Positions 2,872 through 38,298 of a stretch of DNA of 43,343 nt are shown piece by piece. The stretch covers positions 1 to 43,343 of IMG/VR virus record IMGVR_UViG_3300048918_000106; one strand, 5' to 3'. Every line of letters begins with the position of its first letter. Within the stretch, counting starts at the first letter, position 1. The DNA comes from a virus. Made by a program: the position numbers and the translations under genes. The notes under the pieces were generated by a model. The model saw nothing but the letters and a program-made list of their open reading frames with translations, was not told the origin of the DNA and searched no databases.

Positions 2872-4483
2872 CGAAATCACGTTCATCCTAATTGCGGCGC
2901 TCGTTGCGTATCTAGCCGGCATTACATGGGAACTGTGGGTTGCGCCAGCTATCAGCAACCATCGAGCGCGGCGACGAGCGCCAGCCTTGCGCGCTCGCGC
3001 GCTCGATAATACCGTGCCGCCAACCAGTGCCGAGCCACCGCCTGCCACCGTCAAGGCGATGCGGATTAGCGGCATGGTCATTGAGCGCGCCAAGATGACG
3101 GCTCGGCAGCTCGCCGCCACCGCTGGCGAAATGGTCATGCCGTACGACCCGCCGCCGGGTGTGGTGCCGAACAACCAGCGCGCCAACGCAATCGCGATGG
3201 ACGAAACGCCATACGACTACATCAACCAGTCGTTCTATTGCGCTGAGCGTTTCCGTGGTTATCCCTACCTTGCCATGCTGTCGCAGCTTCCAGACTACCG
3301 GAAGATGAGCGAAACCATCGCCAAGCAGATGACACGCAAATGGATTAAGTTGACGACCAAGGGCGACGACGACAAGACCGAAAAACTGCAAAAGCTGGAA
3401 GCCGCCCTTGAGAAGTTCAAGGTGCGCGAGCTGTTCCAGGGTGCGGCCGAACTTGACGGCTTCTTTGGGCGCGGCCAAATCTACATTGATGTTAAGACGC
3501 CGCGCGGGCAGATACCGGCGCGCGACGATCCCGACGAGCTACAAACGCCGCTGCTGATGACATCATCGAAGATCGCCAAGGACTCGCTGATTGGCTTCAC
3601 GCTCATTGAGCCAATGTGGACGTACCCGAACCAGTACAACACGCGCGATCCGCTCGCCCCCGACTACTACAAGCCGCGTTCCTGGTACGTCATGGGTAAG
3701 ACCGTTCACGCTTCGCGCCTACTGATGTTCAGCTCGCGCCCGGTGCCGGACATCCTCAAGGCGTCGTACAACTTCGGCGGCCTGTCGCTGTCGCAACTGG
3801 CTGAGCCGGCCGTCAACAACTGGTTGCGCACGCGGGACAGTGTGTCCGACCTGATCCACTCGTTTTCGATCACCGGCATCAAGACCAATATGGGCACTGC
3901 GCTGAGTGGCGGCGACGGCTCCGATATGTTTGCGCGCGCCGATCTGTTCAACGAGACGCGCGACAATCGCGGCTTGATGATGCTCGACCTCGACGCCGAG
4001 GAAATGTTCCAGCTCAACACGCCGCTGTCAGGCATCGCTGACCTTCAGTCCCAAGCGCAGGAACAGCCGGCCGCCGTCAGCAACATTCCGCTTGTCTTCC
4101 TGCTCGGCATCACGCCAAACGGAATGAATGCGACCAGCGAAGGCGAAATTGAGGTGTTCTACAGCTACATCGGGACCATGCAAGACACGCTATTTCGCGC
4201 GCCGCTCAACAAGGTTTTGGACGTGTTGCAGCTCAACGAGTTTGGTAGTATCGATGAGGACATTGGCGCAGAGTTCGTGCCGCTGTCGGAAATGACGCCG
4301 GAACAGCGCGCCACTATCGAGAAGACCAAGGCGGACACGGATGCGGTGTTGATTGACAAGTGCGTTATCTCGCCGGACGATGCGCGCGACCGCCTGATTG
4401 CTGACCCGAACAACGATTATCACGGCCTGGAACCGGGCGCACCGGACCTGCCGGAAGATGATAACGGCGCGGGCGATGACTAA
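2852..4483 (+). CDS. Portal protein (DUF1073 type)
   Basis: 543 aa as read. It should form the dodecameric ring at the capsid vertex through which DNA passes. From about residue 115 (YDYINQSFY..FRGYPYLAMLSQLPDYRKM) it follows the DUF1073 portal family, including the NIPLVFLLGITPNGMNATSEGE segment near 415 and a charged C-terminus. The first ~70 residues are atypical, with a hydrophobic helix (about 10-30, ITFILIAALVAYLAGITWELW) and an Arg/Ala/Pro-rich linker. The true start could be the ATG at 3059, but its Shine-Dalgarno is weak. It overlaps the Mu F-like gene by 8 bp. Confidence 0.88.
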   Translation: MRYLTPNEITFILIAALVAYLAGITWELWVAPAISNHRARRRAPALRARALDNTVPPTSAEPPPATVKAMRISGMVIERAKMTARQLAATAGEMVMPYDPPPGVVPNNQRANAIAMDETPYDYINQSFYCAERFRGYPYLAMLSQLPDYRKMSETIAKQMTRKWIKLTTKGDDDKTEKLQKLEAALEKFKVRELFQGAAELDGFFGRGQIYIDVKTPRGQIPARDDPDELQTPLLMTSSKIAKDSLIGFTLIEPMWTYPNQYNTRDPLAPDYYKPRSWYVMGKTVHASRLLMFSSRPVPDILKASYNFGGLSLSQLAEPAVNNWLRTRDSVSDLIHSFSITGIKTNMGTALSGGDGSDMFARADLFNETRDNRGLMMLDLDAEEMFQLNTPLSGIADLQSQAQEQPAAVSNIPLVFLLGITPNGMNATSEGEIEVFYSYIGTMQDTLFRAPLNKVLDVLQLNEFGSIDEDIGAEFVPLSEMTPEQRATIEKTKADTDAVLIDKCVISPDDARDRLIADPNNDYHGLEPGAPDLPEDDNGAGDD

Positions 4484-29018: not shown

Positions 29019-29033
29019 GTTGCACCCTGAATG

Positions 29034-29062
29034 AAAAAGACCCGCCTCATGTGGACGGCGGG
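29034..29062 (-). terminator. Rho-independent terminator after the ssDNA-binding gene
   Basis: On the minus strand CCCGCC, a 10-nt loop and GGCGGG are followed by TCTTTTT. It should reduce read-through from the ssDNA-binding protein gene into the polymerase genes, giving unequal dosage. Confidence 0.72.
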
Positions 29063-29096
29063 CCGCAAACCCGCGCAAATGCGCAGGGGAGACATC

Positions 29097-30266
29097 TTAC
29101 GGAGCCATGAAGCCGTTTTGCACCAGCATAGCATCGTTCCAGCCGGCCTGGATGTACGCGGCGTACGTCGTCGCGCCGGCCGCCGGCAACATGACTTTAC
29201 CAGTCGCGGGCGGCGGAGGCGCGACAGCAGCAGTCGCGGCAGGGGGCGGCGGTGCCACAGAACCAGCGATAGCCAAAGGGGCCGGTGCTGCCGGTTGCGC
29301 CATATAACCCGCGCCGATCAGCGCCTGATCCGTCCAGCCGGCCGCGATGTATTGCTGGTACGTCGTTGCACCGGCCGCCGGCAACATTTGCGGACCCGCC
29401 GTCAAAATAGCGGTGTGCGGCGTGACGGGCGGCGGGGGTGCCACAGCAGCAGGCGGCGGGGGTGCCACGGCAGCAGGCGGCGGGGGTGCCACGGCAGCAG
29501 GCGGCGGGGGTGCCACAGCAGCAGGCGCAGCACGGGTAGCGTGACCGGCGGCAACGATTTGATCGTCGCTCCAACCGGCCGCACGGAGCTGTTCGATGGT
29601 ATGCGGGGCACCAGGAACCGGCACCAAGCCGCCAGCGGCCGGTGCTGCGCCAGCCGTACCGCCGAACACGCTTGCCGCGTCGGGCCCGCTCGTGATCACG
29701 TCACCGATACGCGCCCATTCGACCATCGAGTGCGACACGTACAGGCCGGGTTTCATCGTGTCGTCGTTGCCTCTGATCGTGCCGGCCACGCGCACATAAT
29801 GGCCGCGCGGAATCGGGTTGACGCCGTTTTGCAGTTGCAACTGCTCATGCGGTTGGTACTTGCCCGTAGCAAAGCATTTCGGCGGGAATTGCGACGAGAA
29901 GCGCACAACCCAATGACCCGCGAAGCCTTCTTTGGTGCTGTTGAGGCGGCCGGTTTGGTCCGCGCCGTCGCCATCGATGATCTTAAACGCGAAGTTCGGG
30001 TTGACGCACGGGCTGGCGGGGTTTGGAAACAGCGTTGGGAAGTCGCGACGCGCCGTGTCTTCCAGCAGCTTGTGGAATGCCGGCCACGCCGGGTCATTTT
30101 TCGCGAACGCAACCGCGATGAAAAATTTCGTCATCGGTTGACCCTTGTTGGGGCCATTCTTGATGAGATACGGGTTGCCTTGCTGGTCTTTGGTCTGACC
30201 TTCAAAGCAATTGCCTTGAACCAAGCGACCAACGGGGGTGAGGAATTCAACAGCGGGTCCAGACAT
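29097..30266 (-). CDS. Enc34-like ssDNA-binding protein with AGW repeats
   Basis: 389 aa. The first ~190 residues (KFFIAVAFAKNDPAWPAFHKLL, FAFKIIDGDG, GHWVVRFSSQFPPKCF, RGHYVRVAGTIRGND) resemble the Enc34/DUF2815 ssDNA-binding family, which protects replication intermediates. The C-terminal half is unusual, with a DAASVFGG box (196-203), a first AGWSDDQIVAAGH repeat (~230), four tandem PAAVAPPP units (~249-280), and two more repeats (YQQYIAAGWTDQALIGAGYM ~303-322; YAAYIQAGWNDAMLVQNGFM ~368-387) separated by Pro/Ala linkers. TAGGAGT precedes the ATG. It has its own promoter and terminator, fitting high expression. Confidence 0.72.
   Translation of the reverse strand: MSGPAVEFLTPVGRLVQGNCFEGQTKDQQGNPYLIKNGPNKGQPMTKFFIAVAFAKNDPAWPAFHKLLEDTARRDFPTLFPNPASPCVNPNFAFKIIDGDGADQTGRLNSTKEGFAGHWVVRFSSQFPPKCFATGKYQPHEQLQLQNGVNPIPRGHYVRVAGTIRGNDDTMKPGLYVSHSMVEWARIGDVITSGPDAASVFGGTAGAAPAAGGLVPVPGAPHTIEQLRAAGWSDDQIVAAGHATRAAPAAVAPPPPAAVAPPPPAAVAPPPPAAVAPPPPVTPHTAILTAGPQMLPAAGATTYQQYIAAGWTDQALIGAGYMAQPAAPAPLAIAGSVAPPPPAATAAVAPPPPATGKVMLPAAGATTYAAYIQAGWNDAMLVQNGFMAP
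29428..29523 (-). repeat. Four tandem 24-bp repeats in the ssDNA-binding gene
   Basis: Four in-phase 24-bp units encode (PAAVAPPP)x4 in the Pro-rich linker. Units differ by one or two bases. Copy number can change without a frameshift, so linker length may vary between isolates. Confidence 0.9.
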
Positions 30267-30297
30267 GATTTTTACTCCTAGTTTTAATTGAACTTCT

Positions 30298-36548: not shown

Positions 36549-37026
36549 CGTGATCGCGTGGGCAAATCGCCACGGGGTTACGCTCGCCGCTGTGCAAGAA
36601 TTGTTGCACGAGCTTGGCCAGGGGTATGCCCCGCCGCAGCCTGATTTTCAACTCGGTCATTCGGAAGCCGCTGTCACCTCGCGCGTGCGCCTGGAAGCGG
36701 CGAGCAAGGGTGTCATCCTATGGCGCAATCAGGTTGGCGCGCTGCCCGATGCAAACGGCCGGCTTGTGCGCTTTGGCCTTTGCAATGACAGCGCAATCGT
36801 CAACAGAGAAATCAAGTCGTCGGACTGGATTGGTATGCGTGCACACCTTGTCACCCCTGCCGATGTCGGCCATGTTCTCGGGCAGTTCGTGGCGCGCGAA
36901 ATAAAAGAAGAAGGCTGGACGTTCAACGTCCACGACAAGCACCAGGAAGCGCAAGCGAAGTTCGGCCGCATCGTCACGTCGTACGGTGGCGATTTCGCGT
37001 TTTGCACGGGCGTGGGGTCATTGTGA
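36541..37026 (+). CDS. VRR-NUC domain nuclease
   Basis: 161 aa from a TTG start at 36541 with GGGGCG upstream. The core (SRVRLEAASKGVILWRNQVGALPDANGRLVRFGLCNDS, then EIKSSDWIG and GQFVAREIKEEGW) matches VRR-NUC nucleases, relatives of PD-(D/E)XK enzymes such as Fan1, which act on branched or recombination DNA. The likely metal site includes E58-type, D and E-x-K residues in EIKEEG. The stop overlaps the methyltransferase GTG by 4 bp, so the two are probably co-translated. Confidence 0.78.
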   Translation: MADVIAWANRHGVTLAAVQELLHELGQGYAPPQPDFQLGHSEAAVTSRVRLEAASKGVILWRNQVGALPDANGRLVRFGLCNDSAIVNREIKSSDWIGMRAHLVTPADVGHVLGQFVAREIKEEGWTFNVHDKHQEAQAKFGRIVTSYGGDFAFCTGVGSL

Positions 37027-37828
37027 AGGTTGGGTTTTGGGACGAGAAGGCTGCGGAGTGGGTGCGCAATCTGGTTGCTGCCGACTTGATTGAACCGGCA
37101 TATTACAACGAGATTAACCCCCACGCCGCAGCGTGGCTGCGTAACCTGATTGATGCCGGCCATATCGCGCCGGGGTTTGTGGATGAACGGAGTATTGAAG
37201 ATGTCAGACCTTCCGACCTTGCCGGCTTTGCGCAATGCCATTTTTTCGCCGGAATCGGAATCTGGTCGCTTGCGCTTCGCCGCGCTGGGTGGCCTGACGA
37301 TAAGCGAGTTTGGACAGGCTCTTGTCCCTGCCAACCTTTCAGCCAGGCAGGCGAAGGCGGCGGGTTTGCTGACGAGCGGCATTTGTGGCCGCACTGGTTC
37401 CACCTCATCACACAGCGCCGCCCTGATGTCATTCTTGGGGAACAGGTTGCAAGCAAAGACGGCCTCGCTTGGCTCGACCTTGTACACGCTGACATGGAAG
37501 CTGCGAACTACGGGGGGGGGGGGGGGCTGTCGATTTATTCGCTGCGGGCGTCGGCGCTCCGCACATCCGACAACGGTTGTATCGGGCTGCCTACGCCAAG
37601 TGGGACCAGCAATCACGGGCGAAATCACGTATCGGGCCGGCTGGACGAATGGGGTGGATCGGGGAACCCCTTCCGTGGAACGGAGGTTGGGAGGTTGCAC
37701 TTGCCGGGTTTCGAGCTATGGGTGATGGGAATCCCCGATGCGTGGCGGCCACGGATGCCGCTCGCAACGCAATTGTCCCGCAAGTCGCAACCGTCTTCAT
37801 CGAAACCGTAATGGAGTGCTTACCGTGA
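37023..37828 (+). CDS. C5 cytosine methyltransferase, frame broken at a G15 run
   Basis: The GTG at 37023 overlaps the nuclease stop. Motif I HFFAGIGIWSLALRRAG (~73), motif IV SCPCQPFSQAG (catalytic Cys ~103) and an ENV-like EQV (~140) are in the first frame. After 15 Gs (37512-37526) that frame degenerates and runs to 37811. The frame one base back carries the missing half: AVDLFAAGVGAPHIRQRLYR (motif VIII-like RQR), a target region, and NAIVPQVATVFIETVMECLP (motif X), ending at 37828 inside the next gene's GTGA. Losing two Gs or gaining one joins them into a 267-268-aa enzyme. So the gene is switched off by slippage or the run was miscounted. It probably methylates cytosine to evade or mimic host modification. 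Confidence 0.88.
37512..37526 (+). repeat. Run of 15 G in the methyltransferase gene
   Basis: An uninterrupted G15 tract lies in the coding region just before the conserved AVDLFAAGVGAPH segment. It is by far the longest homopolymer I noticed in the window and sits exactly at the frame break. Such tracts are typical slipped-strand phase-variation sites and also typical of sequencing miscounts. Confidence 0.95.
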
Positions 37829-38298
37829 CCGTCTACGCAGCAACCGGACACCGACCGGACAAGCTTGGTGGCTTCGGCGCGCACTACCACAATCGGCTGG
37901 TGCGTGTTGCTGCTGAGTTCCTTGCGGTGCACCGTCCGAGCAAGTGTATTAGCGGCATGGCGCTAGGCTGGGACATGGCGTATGCGGAAGCCGCGCTCAG
38001 CCTGGGTATCCCGCTGCTGGCCGCCGTGCCGTTCGCGGGTCAGCAATCCATGTGGCCGCTCGCTTGTCAGCAACAGTATCAGGACATCATAGATCGCGCC
38101 GCCGATGTCATCATCGTGTCGCAAAATGGCTTCAGCGCGCGTGCAATGCAGGTCCGCAACGAATGGATGGTTGACCATGCCGATGTGATAGCCGCAATGT
38201 TTGACGGCTCGCGCGGCGGCACATACAACTGCTTGTGGTACGCGCACACGAACAACAAACCGATTATCAACCTGTACGACCAATGGAGAAGAAAATGA
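37825..38298 (+). CDS. SLOG/YspA-like nucleotide-binding protein
   Basis: 157 aa from a GTG that overlaps the methyltransferase stop (GTGA). YAATGHRPDKLGGFG, VHRPSKCISGMALGWDMAYAE and LAAVPFAGQQSMWP give the Rossmann-like pattern of DUF1273/YspA-type SLOG proteins, which bind nucleotides or nucleotide-like ligands. It ends FDGSRGGTYNCLWYAH and NKPIINLY. SLOG domains occur in defence and nucleotide-signalling systems; here a counter-defence or nucleotide-sensing role is possible but inferred. ATGA overlap with the ParB-like gene. Confidence 0.82.
   Translation: MTVYAATGHRPDKLGGFGAHYHNRLVRVAAEFLAVHRPSKCISGMALGWDMAYAEAALSLGIPLLAAVPFAGQQSMWPLACQQQYQDIIDRAADVIIVSQNGFSARAMQVRNEWMVDHADVIAAMFDGSRGGTYNCLWYAHTNNKPIINLYDQWRRK

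Follow-up and report, generated by a model that had tools for sequence, protein, structure and literature searches.

A G tract in a putatively double-coded methyltransferase gene

The stretch of viral DNA analyzed here (43,343 nucleotides; the window) encodes, to judge from its motifs, a phage orphan C5 cytosine methyltransferase, and the same DNA very probably encodes a second protein in the frame +1 to it. A tract of 15 G residues sits inside the overlap, so that both proteins are thrown out of register together. In the following, M denotes the methylase frame and S denotes frame +1 of M. The complete reading, that of a double-coded M/S gene with a slippage-prone tract and no proven switch, is the one that we consider probable on balance. 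The features concerned are the following:

37023 to 37511, + strand: N-half of M, with motifs I (FAGIG), IV (PCQP; PCQPFS), and VI (EQV); start codon GTG at 37023
37188 to 37192, + strand: Shine-Dalgarno-like CGGAG of putative S, 8 bases before the ATG
37201 to 37511, + strand: N-part of putative S (MSDLPTLPALRNAIFSPESESG...GSTLYTLTWKLRT), ATG at 37201; match to phrog_1008
37512 to 37526, + strand: G15 tract, exact letter count
37526 to 37828, + strand: C-half of M (AVDLFAAGVGAPHIRQR...NAIVPQV), stop codon TGA at 37826 to 37828
37527 to 37811, + strand: C-part of putative S including the stop codon (LSIYSLRASALRTSDNGCIGLPTPSGTSNHGRNHVSGRLDEWGGSGNPFRG...)
37023 to 37811, + strand: frame as deposited with 15 Gs, the N-half of M read into the C-part of S; 262 aa
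37825 to 38298, + strand: next gene, whose GTG start and the M stop overlap; matches phrog_289 (GTP-binding domain) weakly

The first-pass annotation had proposed that the tract splits a phage C5 methyltransferase, and the sequence bears this out: 15 Gs are counted, and across them the C-half of M is offset one base back relative to the N-half. The repair that it suggested, loss of two Gs or gain of one, agrees with the frame arithmetic, since M is restored by 3n+1 Gs (13 Gs give 267 aa and 16 Gs give 268 aa); the usual length at the homologous site in relatives is equivalent to 10 Gs. The stop of the C-half also fits the next gene as described, with the TGA at 37826 to 37828 overlapping its GTGA. 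The C-half contains motif VIII (GAPHIRQRLY), a short target-recognition stretch, and motif X (RNAIVPQV), and the two halves match consecutive ranges of phrog_363 (2.6e-55 for the N-half and 5.3e-07 for the C-half). Thus, motifs I, IV, VI, VIII, and X of a C5 methyltransferase are all present in order, shared between two frames, and in the deposited sequence the phrog_363 enzyme does not run in one continuous frame but switches at G15. Motifs I and IV and the EQV reported earlier are indeed there, the EQV being ordinary in the family and no defect. In the window, the aromatic residue of RQRLY is followed by Arg, where 138 of the 139 scored relatives have Trp or Phe, which may be a hint of relaxed selection on this copy of M.

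G15 is the only homopolymer longer than six bases in the window, any base counted, and overlapping G8 windows number 8 against 0.73 expected. Interruption by a homopolymer is an adequate description of the split gene. However, the first-pass annotation overlooked that the frame with 15 Gs does not end early: it stays open until 37811, with its tail in the +1 frame of the enzyme. Both frames 3' of the tract are still open, whereas the N-part of S, read with 15 Gs, enters the third frame and meets a stop at ~37725. The tract is intragenic and sets the frame by its length, as contingency loci do. The large genes that were checked in the window (portal, major head, tape measure, DNA polymerase, helicase, and primase) are intact and have strong family matches, so that its sequence appears to be generally sound. 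The gene at 37825 to 38298 also weakly matches the PADLOC model ShosA (1.8e-05). Elsewhere in the window, two long open frames lie on opposite strands at 29031 to 30281 (+) and 29097 to 30266 (-), of 416 and 389 codons, respectively; the + frame is without a PHROG match.

Frame +1 in related phages

The closest homologue of the C-half, L070, is an intact single-frame enzyme. Between it and the window, S is the more similar frame, with 74% over 84 aa versus 66% over 99 aa for M. Mismatches at methylase codon positions 1, 2, and 3 number 35, 30, and 70 in the N-half and 28, 15, and 26 in the C-half, and the latter distribution is, on this sequence comparison, a double-coding pattern. When phages were searched with the +1 tail, matches came from those of Vibrio, Paracoccus, and Pseudomonas, in which the same DNA is annotated variously as a methylase or as a hypothetical protein read in frame +1. 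Among the Vibrio phages, for instance, homologous DNA is annotated as a methylase in L168 and L170 versus an S-frame hypothetical protein in L167, L169, and L171. When 50,697 phage records were searched with one S protein, 199 matched. S extends from ~15 codons before motif I through motif X. The region had previously been read as one gene; the +1 frame appears instead to be a conserved second coding frame, and the tract hits both.

Stop codons in the overlapping frames

Expected numbers of stop codons were obtained by exchanging synonymous codons inside each gene, so that neither the methylase protein nor its codon usage changed; the loci share descent, and deviations from the shuffles are accordingly not probabilities. 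In the C-half of 121 methyltransferases that had been fetched without S, there were 9 stops in frame +1 versus 193.6 ± 9.5 expected, and 116 of the 121 genes were open in this frame versus 27 expected; frame +2 showed no stop depletion. In 161 phage methyltransferases, the 80 codons before motif VIII contained a single +1 stop (~235 expected), and the stretch from motif VIII to motif X contained 17 (283 expected). The limits of the depletion were sharp, with an onset ~100 to 120 codons before motif VIII (approximately at motif I) and an end at motif X, and outside these limits +1 stops were normal or in excess. The idea that S is peculiar to this window was thereby ruled out, the depletion being family-wide. 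As a control, 150 further genes from these contigs had 1,847 stops versus 1,848 expected (ratio, 1.00). An independent set made up of bacterial genomes together with N15, epsilon15, phiKX1, ZS04, and PMG1 gave 4 stops versus 56.8 expected. A stop in S was seen in ~6% of the M genes scored.

The reciprocal test gave the same picture. For 57 loci found with an S protein as the query, shuffling of the S codons led to an expectation of 341 stops in the M frame, and 1 was found, while the third frame contained 596 versus 598 expected; both frames were open in 55 of the 57 loci. Given M, S is thus open much more often than chance would allow, as an overprinted gene is.

Twenty-one other (cellular) C5 enzymes, including Escherichia coli Dcm, had 109 +1 stops versus 127 expected. 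Seven genes of the same type among them, however, had none, where only ~9 were expected. These represent a second C5 type (AGYPCQPFSVAGKRR...ENVAHHLR; L384 to L386 and L394 to L397) and come from bacterial genomes, mostly of Rhodobacteraceae. S or an analogue may therefore extend to this type.

Selection on S and its initiation signal

For 45 distinct members of the window subfamily (LPTPSGTSNHGKNHVAGRLDEWGGSSNPFRGT), the mean amino acid entropy was 0.92 for S and 1.85 for M, figures that favor S because most of these members had been fetched with S peptides; variation fell on the first codon position of the methylase, which is the third of S. The comparison of the window with L070, which was first found by the N-half of M, and the family-wide pair counts are free of this bias. 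In 73 disjoint pairs, the fractions of differences at methylase positions 1, 2, and 3 were 0.27, 0.25, and 0.54 before S; 0.18, 0.15, and 0.37 from motif I to motif VIII; and 0.33, 0.24, and 0.34 from motif VIII onward. The intermediate set indicates that amino-acid-level selection on S is clearest in the C part, and purifying selection on the second frame was likewise found to be strongest there. Pairwise identity of S was above the shuffled expectation, but so was that of frame +2, and the identity test is thus supportive at most.

In the window, the sequence CGGAG-N8-ATG is found at 37188 to 37203. Of 113 genes, 63 had GGAG at the upstream methylase motif RSI.DV (14.7 expected) and 90 had an S-frame ATG there (45 expected); after identical sites were dropped, the counts were 46 of 90 and 67 of 90, respectively. 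A Shine-Dalgarno-like motif preceded the first S ATG in 91 of 181 cases, compared with 15% for any ATG. Statistically, then, S has an initiation signal of its own, with some members lacking it. This enrichment favors, as far as sequence signals go, own initiation over frameshifting from M into S. As for a slippery site at the M/S junction, the site of the G tract is not conserved among >150 relatives.

Could frame +1 be open merely through the amino acids and the codon bias of the methylase? Conserved methylase motifs, read in frame +1, yield some of the S motifs (RVADG.P, for example, yields WLMG.P), and S has no match in Pfam, NCBIfam, or PDB, as this explanation would have it. However, the synonymous shuffles preserve both amino acids and codon use and still expect hundreds of stops that are absent, the variation falls on the first and not the third codon position of the methylase, the Shine-Dalgarno motif and the ATG are enriched, and the cellular C5 enzymes are without depletion. 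We consider such a fortuitous opening very improbable and S, with high confidence, a real overlapping gene.

Properties of the predicted protein S

The S open frame has a median length of 309 codons. In N15 (NC_001901), it spans 44739 to 45467, and its first ATG is at 44823. Its matches are to phrog_1008 and phrog_31772 (up to 1e-39), both labeled "DNA methyltransferase," and a search of PADLOC, as of the domain and structure databases named above, gave no match. S was rejected as a second methyltransferase subunit for want of a methyltransferase domain match and as a homing endonuclease of the ShiLan type because it has no Pfam nuclease domain and overlies the methylase's own motifs. It carries up to four WPTP-like repeats, which track LAD[AT]-like repeats of the methylase (r = 0.71). 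The AlphaFold model of S (mean pLDDT, 65), of moderate confidence and only in part, contains a helix and a beta hairpin (approximately residues 76 to 123), the remainder being poor, and the fold search with this model found no solved structure in PDB resembling it. A BFVD search gave four matches at E values of ≤0.001, including an Edwardsiella phage "Methyltransferase" and an uncharacterized protein of Xanthomonas phage FoX4, both of which are probably S-frame entries. No account of S was found in the literature searched, which left subscription journals mostly outside, and S is apparently undescribed.

Two loci show changes of length or frame in this region. In Aeromonas phage AeroV_348 (L162; locus ~2420 to 2470), a 15-base duplication near motif VIII reads AADLCAADLCAAG in M and QICALQICALRAS in S; its length is divisible by three, and both frames are maintained. 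In Paracidovorax citrulli DSM 17060 (L370; NZ_FNEY01000009.1, ~2900 to 3900), the frame of a phage-type methylase is broken near motif IV, with the N end of the methylase continuing in a different frame and S remaining open over a long distance.

The tract site in other contigs and explanations for G15

None of the >150 viral-contig homologues has a G run at the tract site; a fixed-length Y-A-x-G-A-x-D is found there instead. A pattern of eight or more Gs plus a degenerate downstream motif had zero matches in the viral and bacterial-genome contigs searched, while the same motif with GGGG was matched by 40 loci. The tract is thus not kept in related genes, either among these relatives or in the two contig collections, and no second copy of the locus with a different G count was found in the collections searched. 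With no variation shown, no phase variation is shown. In the viral collection, 64 of 89 G15 runs lie within 300 bases of a locus end. Poly-G runs of at least 15 in these viral contigs (L214 to L293) cluster at contig ends and are probably read artifacts retained by the assemblies.

In the reading that we prefer, the DNA of the phage orphan C5 methyltransferase would also encode S in frame +1, and ribosomes would start S at an internal site of the M message. That S and the methylase are permanently paired points to an accessory role, and S might act alongside the enzyme, as a tentative guess, as an accessory or DNA-protection protein. G15 in the overlap would put M and S out of register together, with only 3n+1 Gs keeping both. 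A slippage-prone tract would make the recorded length unreliable, and phages with an in-register length would carry intact M and S. We infer the instability of the tract from its length alone. Most likely, in our view, the tract is unstable or miscounted and has no proven function, although the ratings given here to this reading, a switch, a fixed frameshift, and an artifact overlap in part.

G tracts of such size act as contingency loci in some bacteria, for example, in phase-variable Neisseria methyltransferases, and the first-pass annotation had raised phase variation or miscount, the right pair of alternatives. If the length of the tract changed often in replication and were kept so by selection, populations would be mixed for M (and S) and hence in methylation and restriction sensitivity. 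A coding-region run of 15 Gs and a lost frame that is open to the natural stop of the gene are consistent with this, as is the similar size of known contingency tracts. Against a selected switch are the absence of the tract from relatives and from its site in viral and bacterial contigs, the failure to find a length variant, and a literature search that gave no phage methylase switched by a G tract. The tract is known from one record, and the selected switch proposed earlier is unsupported; we regard it as possible but unlikely, and as no likelier than a dead allele or a tract that is unstable or miscounted. Still more doubtful is a three-state switch controlling both proteins of the double-coded phage gene, in which slippage would change methylation and S together: (i) 3n+1 Gs would give the methylase and S; (ii) 3n Gs, as deposited, would fuse the methylase to S and leave S itself truncated; and (iii) 3n+2 Gs would cut the methylase short and join the N-part of S to the C-part of the methylase.

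The phage may instead carry exactly 15 Gs; the methylase would then be dead, or the 262-aa M/S fusion would have taken its place, in a decaying locus. The Arg after RQRLY, the joining of M to S without a stop in the deposited frame, and the single-base break of a methylase frame elsewhere (L370) point that way. Both downstream frames are otherwise intact and L070-like, however, and a G15 run is unlikely to hold one length, so that a fixed frameshift also seems improbable. Poly-G calling might have replaced an ordinary GCCGTCGGGG-like stretch: the relatives are without the tract, and most G15 runs in the viral contigs are terminal, as read artifacts would be. The tract of the window is internal, though, with clean homologous sequence on both sides, and end-of-read poly-G does not normally return to the true sequence; we give a sequencing or assembly artifact a similarly small chance.

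Implications and comparison with known systems

A real S would mean that a hidden gene of ~200 to 400 codons, which the databases misname or omit, overlies the cytosine methyltransferase of hundreds of tailed phages, the laboratory phages N15 and epsilon15 among them. The odd repeats and the constraint in these methylases would be explained, and an unstudied protein would join the phage DNA-modification toolkit. As a frame change at the tract alters two proteins, knock-outs and phase-variation claims should be read with both in mind.

The orphan C5 methyltransferases of phrog_363/PF00145 (N15 gene 58, epsilon15 p22, and the enzyme of Klebsiella phage LASTA) share motifs, size, gene context, and the S frame with the window gene, but they have no G tract and encode M in a single frame. 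The annotated proteins of phrog_1008 and phrog_31772 are read in the S frame; their label belongs to the methylase, whereas S itself has no methyltransferase domain match. In the G-tract contingency loci of Neisseria, Campylobacter, and others, a tract inside the gene likewise determines the frame through its length; unlike these, the tract in the window is not conserved among relatives and is known here from one record. Overlapping genes at a C5 methyltransferase are also found in E. coli dcm-vsr, where the overlap is short and at the gene end only, and Dcm is without a long +1 frame. Literature searches for poly-G tracts in phage methyltransferases and for genes that overlap methylases gave a sole relevant match, the report of ShiLan, an out-of-frame HNH endonuclease within mycobacteriophage methylase genes (PMC11855218). 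ShiLan resembles S in being a second protein out of frame inside a phage methylase gene, but it is an inserted homing element (PMC11855218), whereas S overlies the methylase's own conserved motifs throughout the family.
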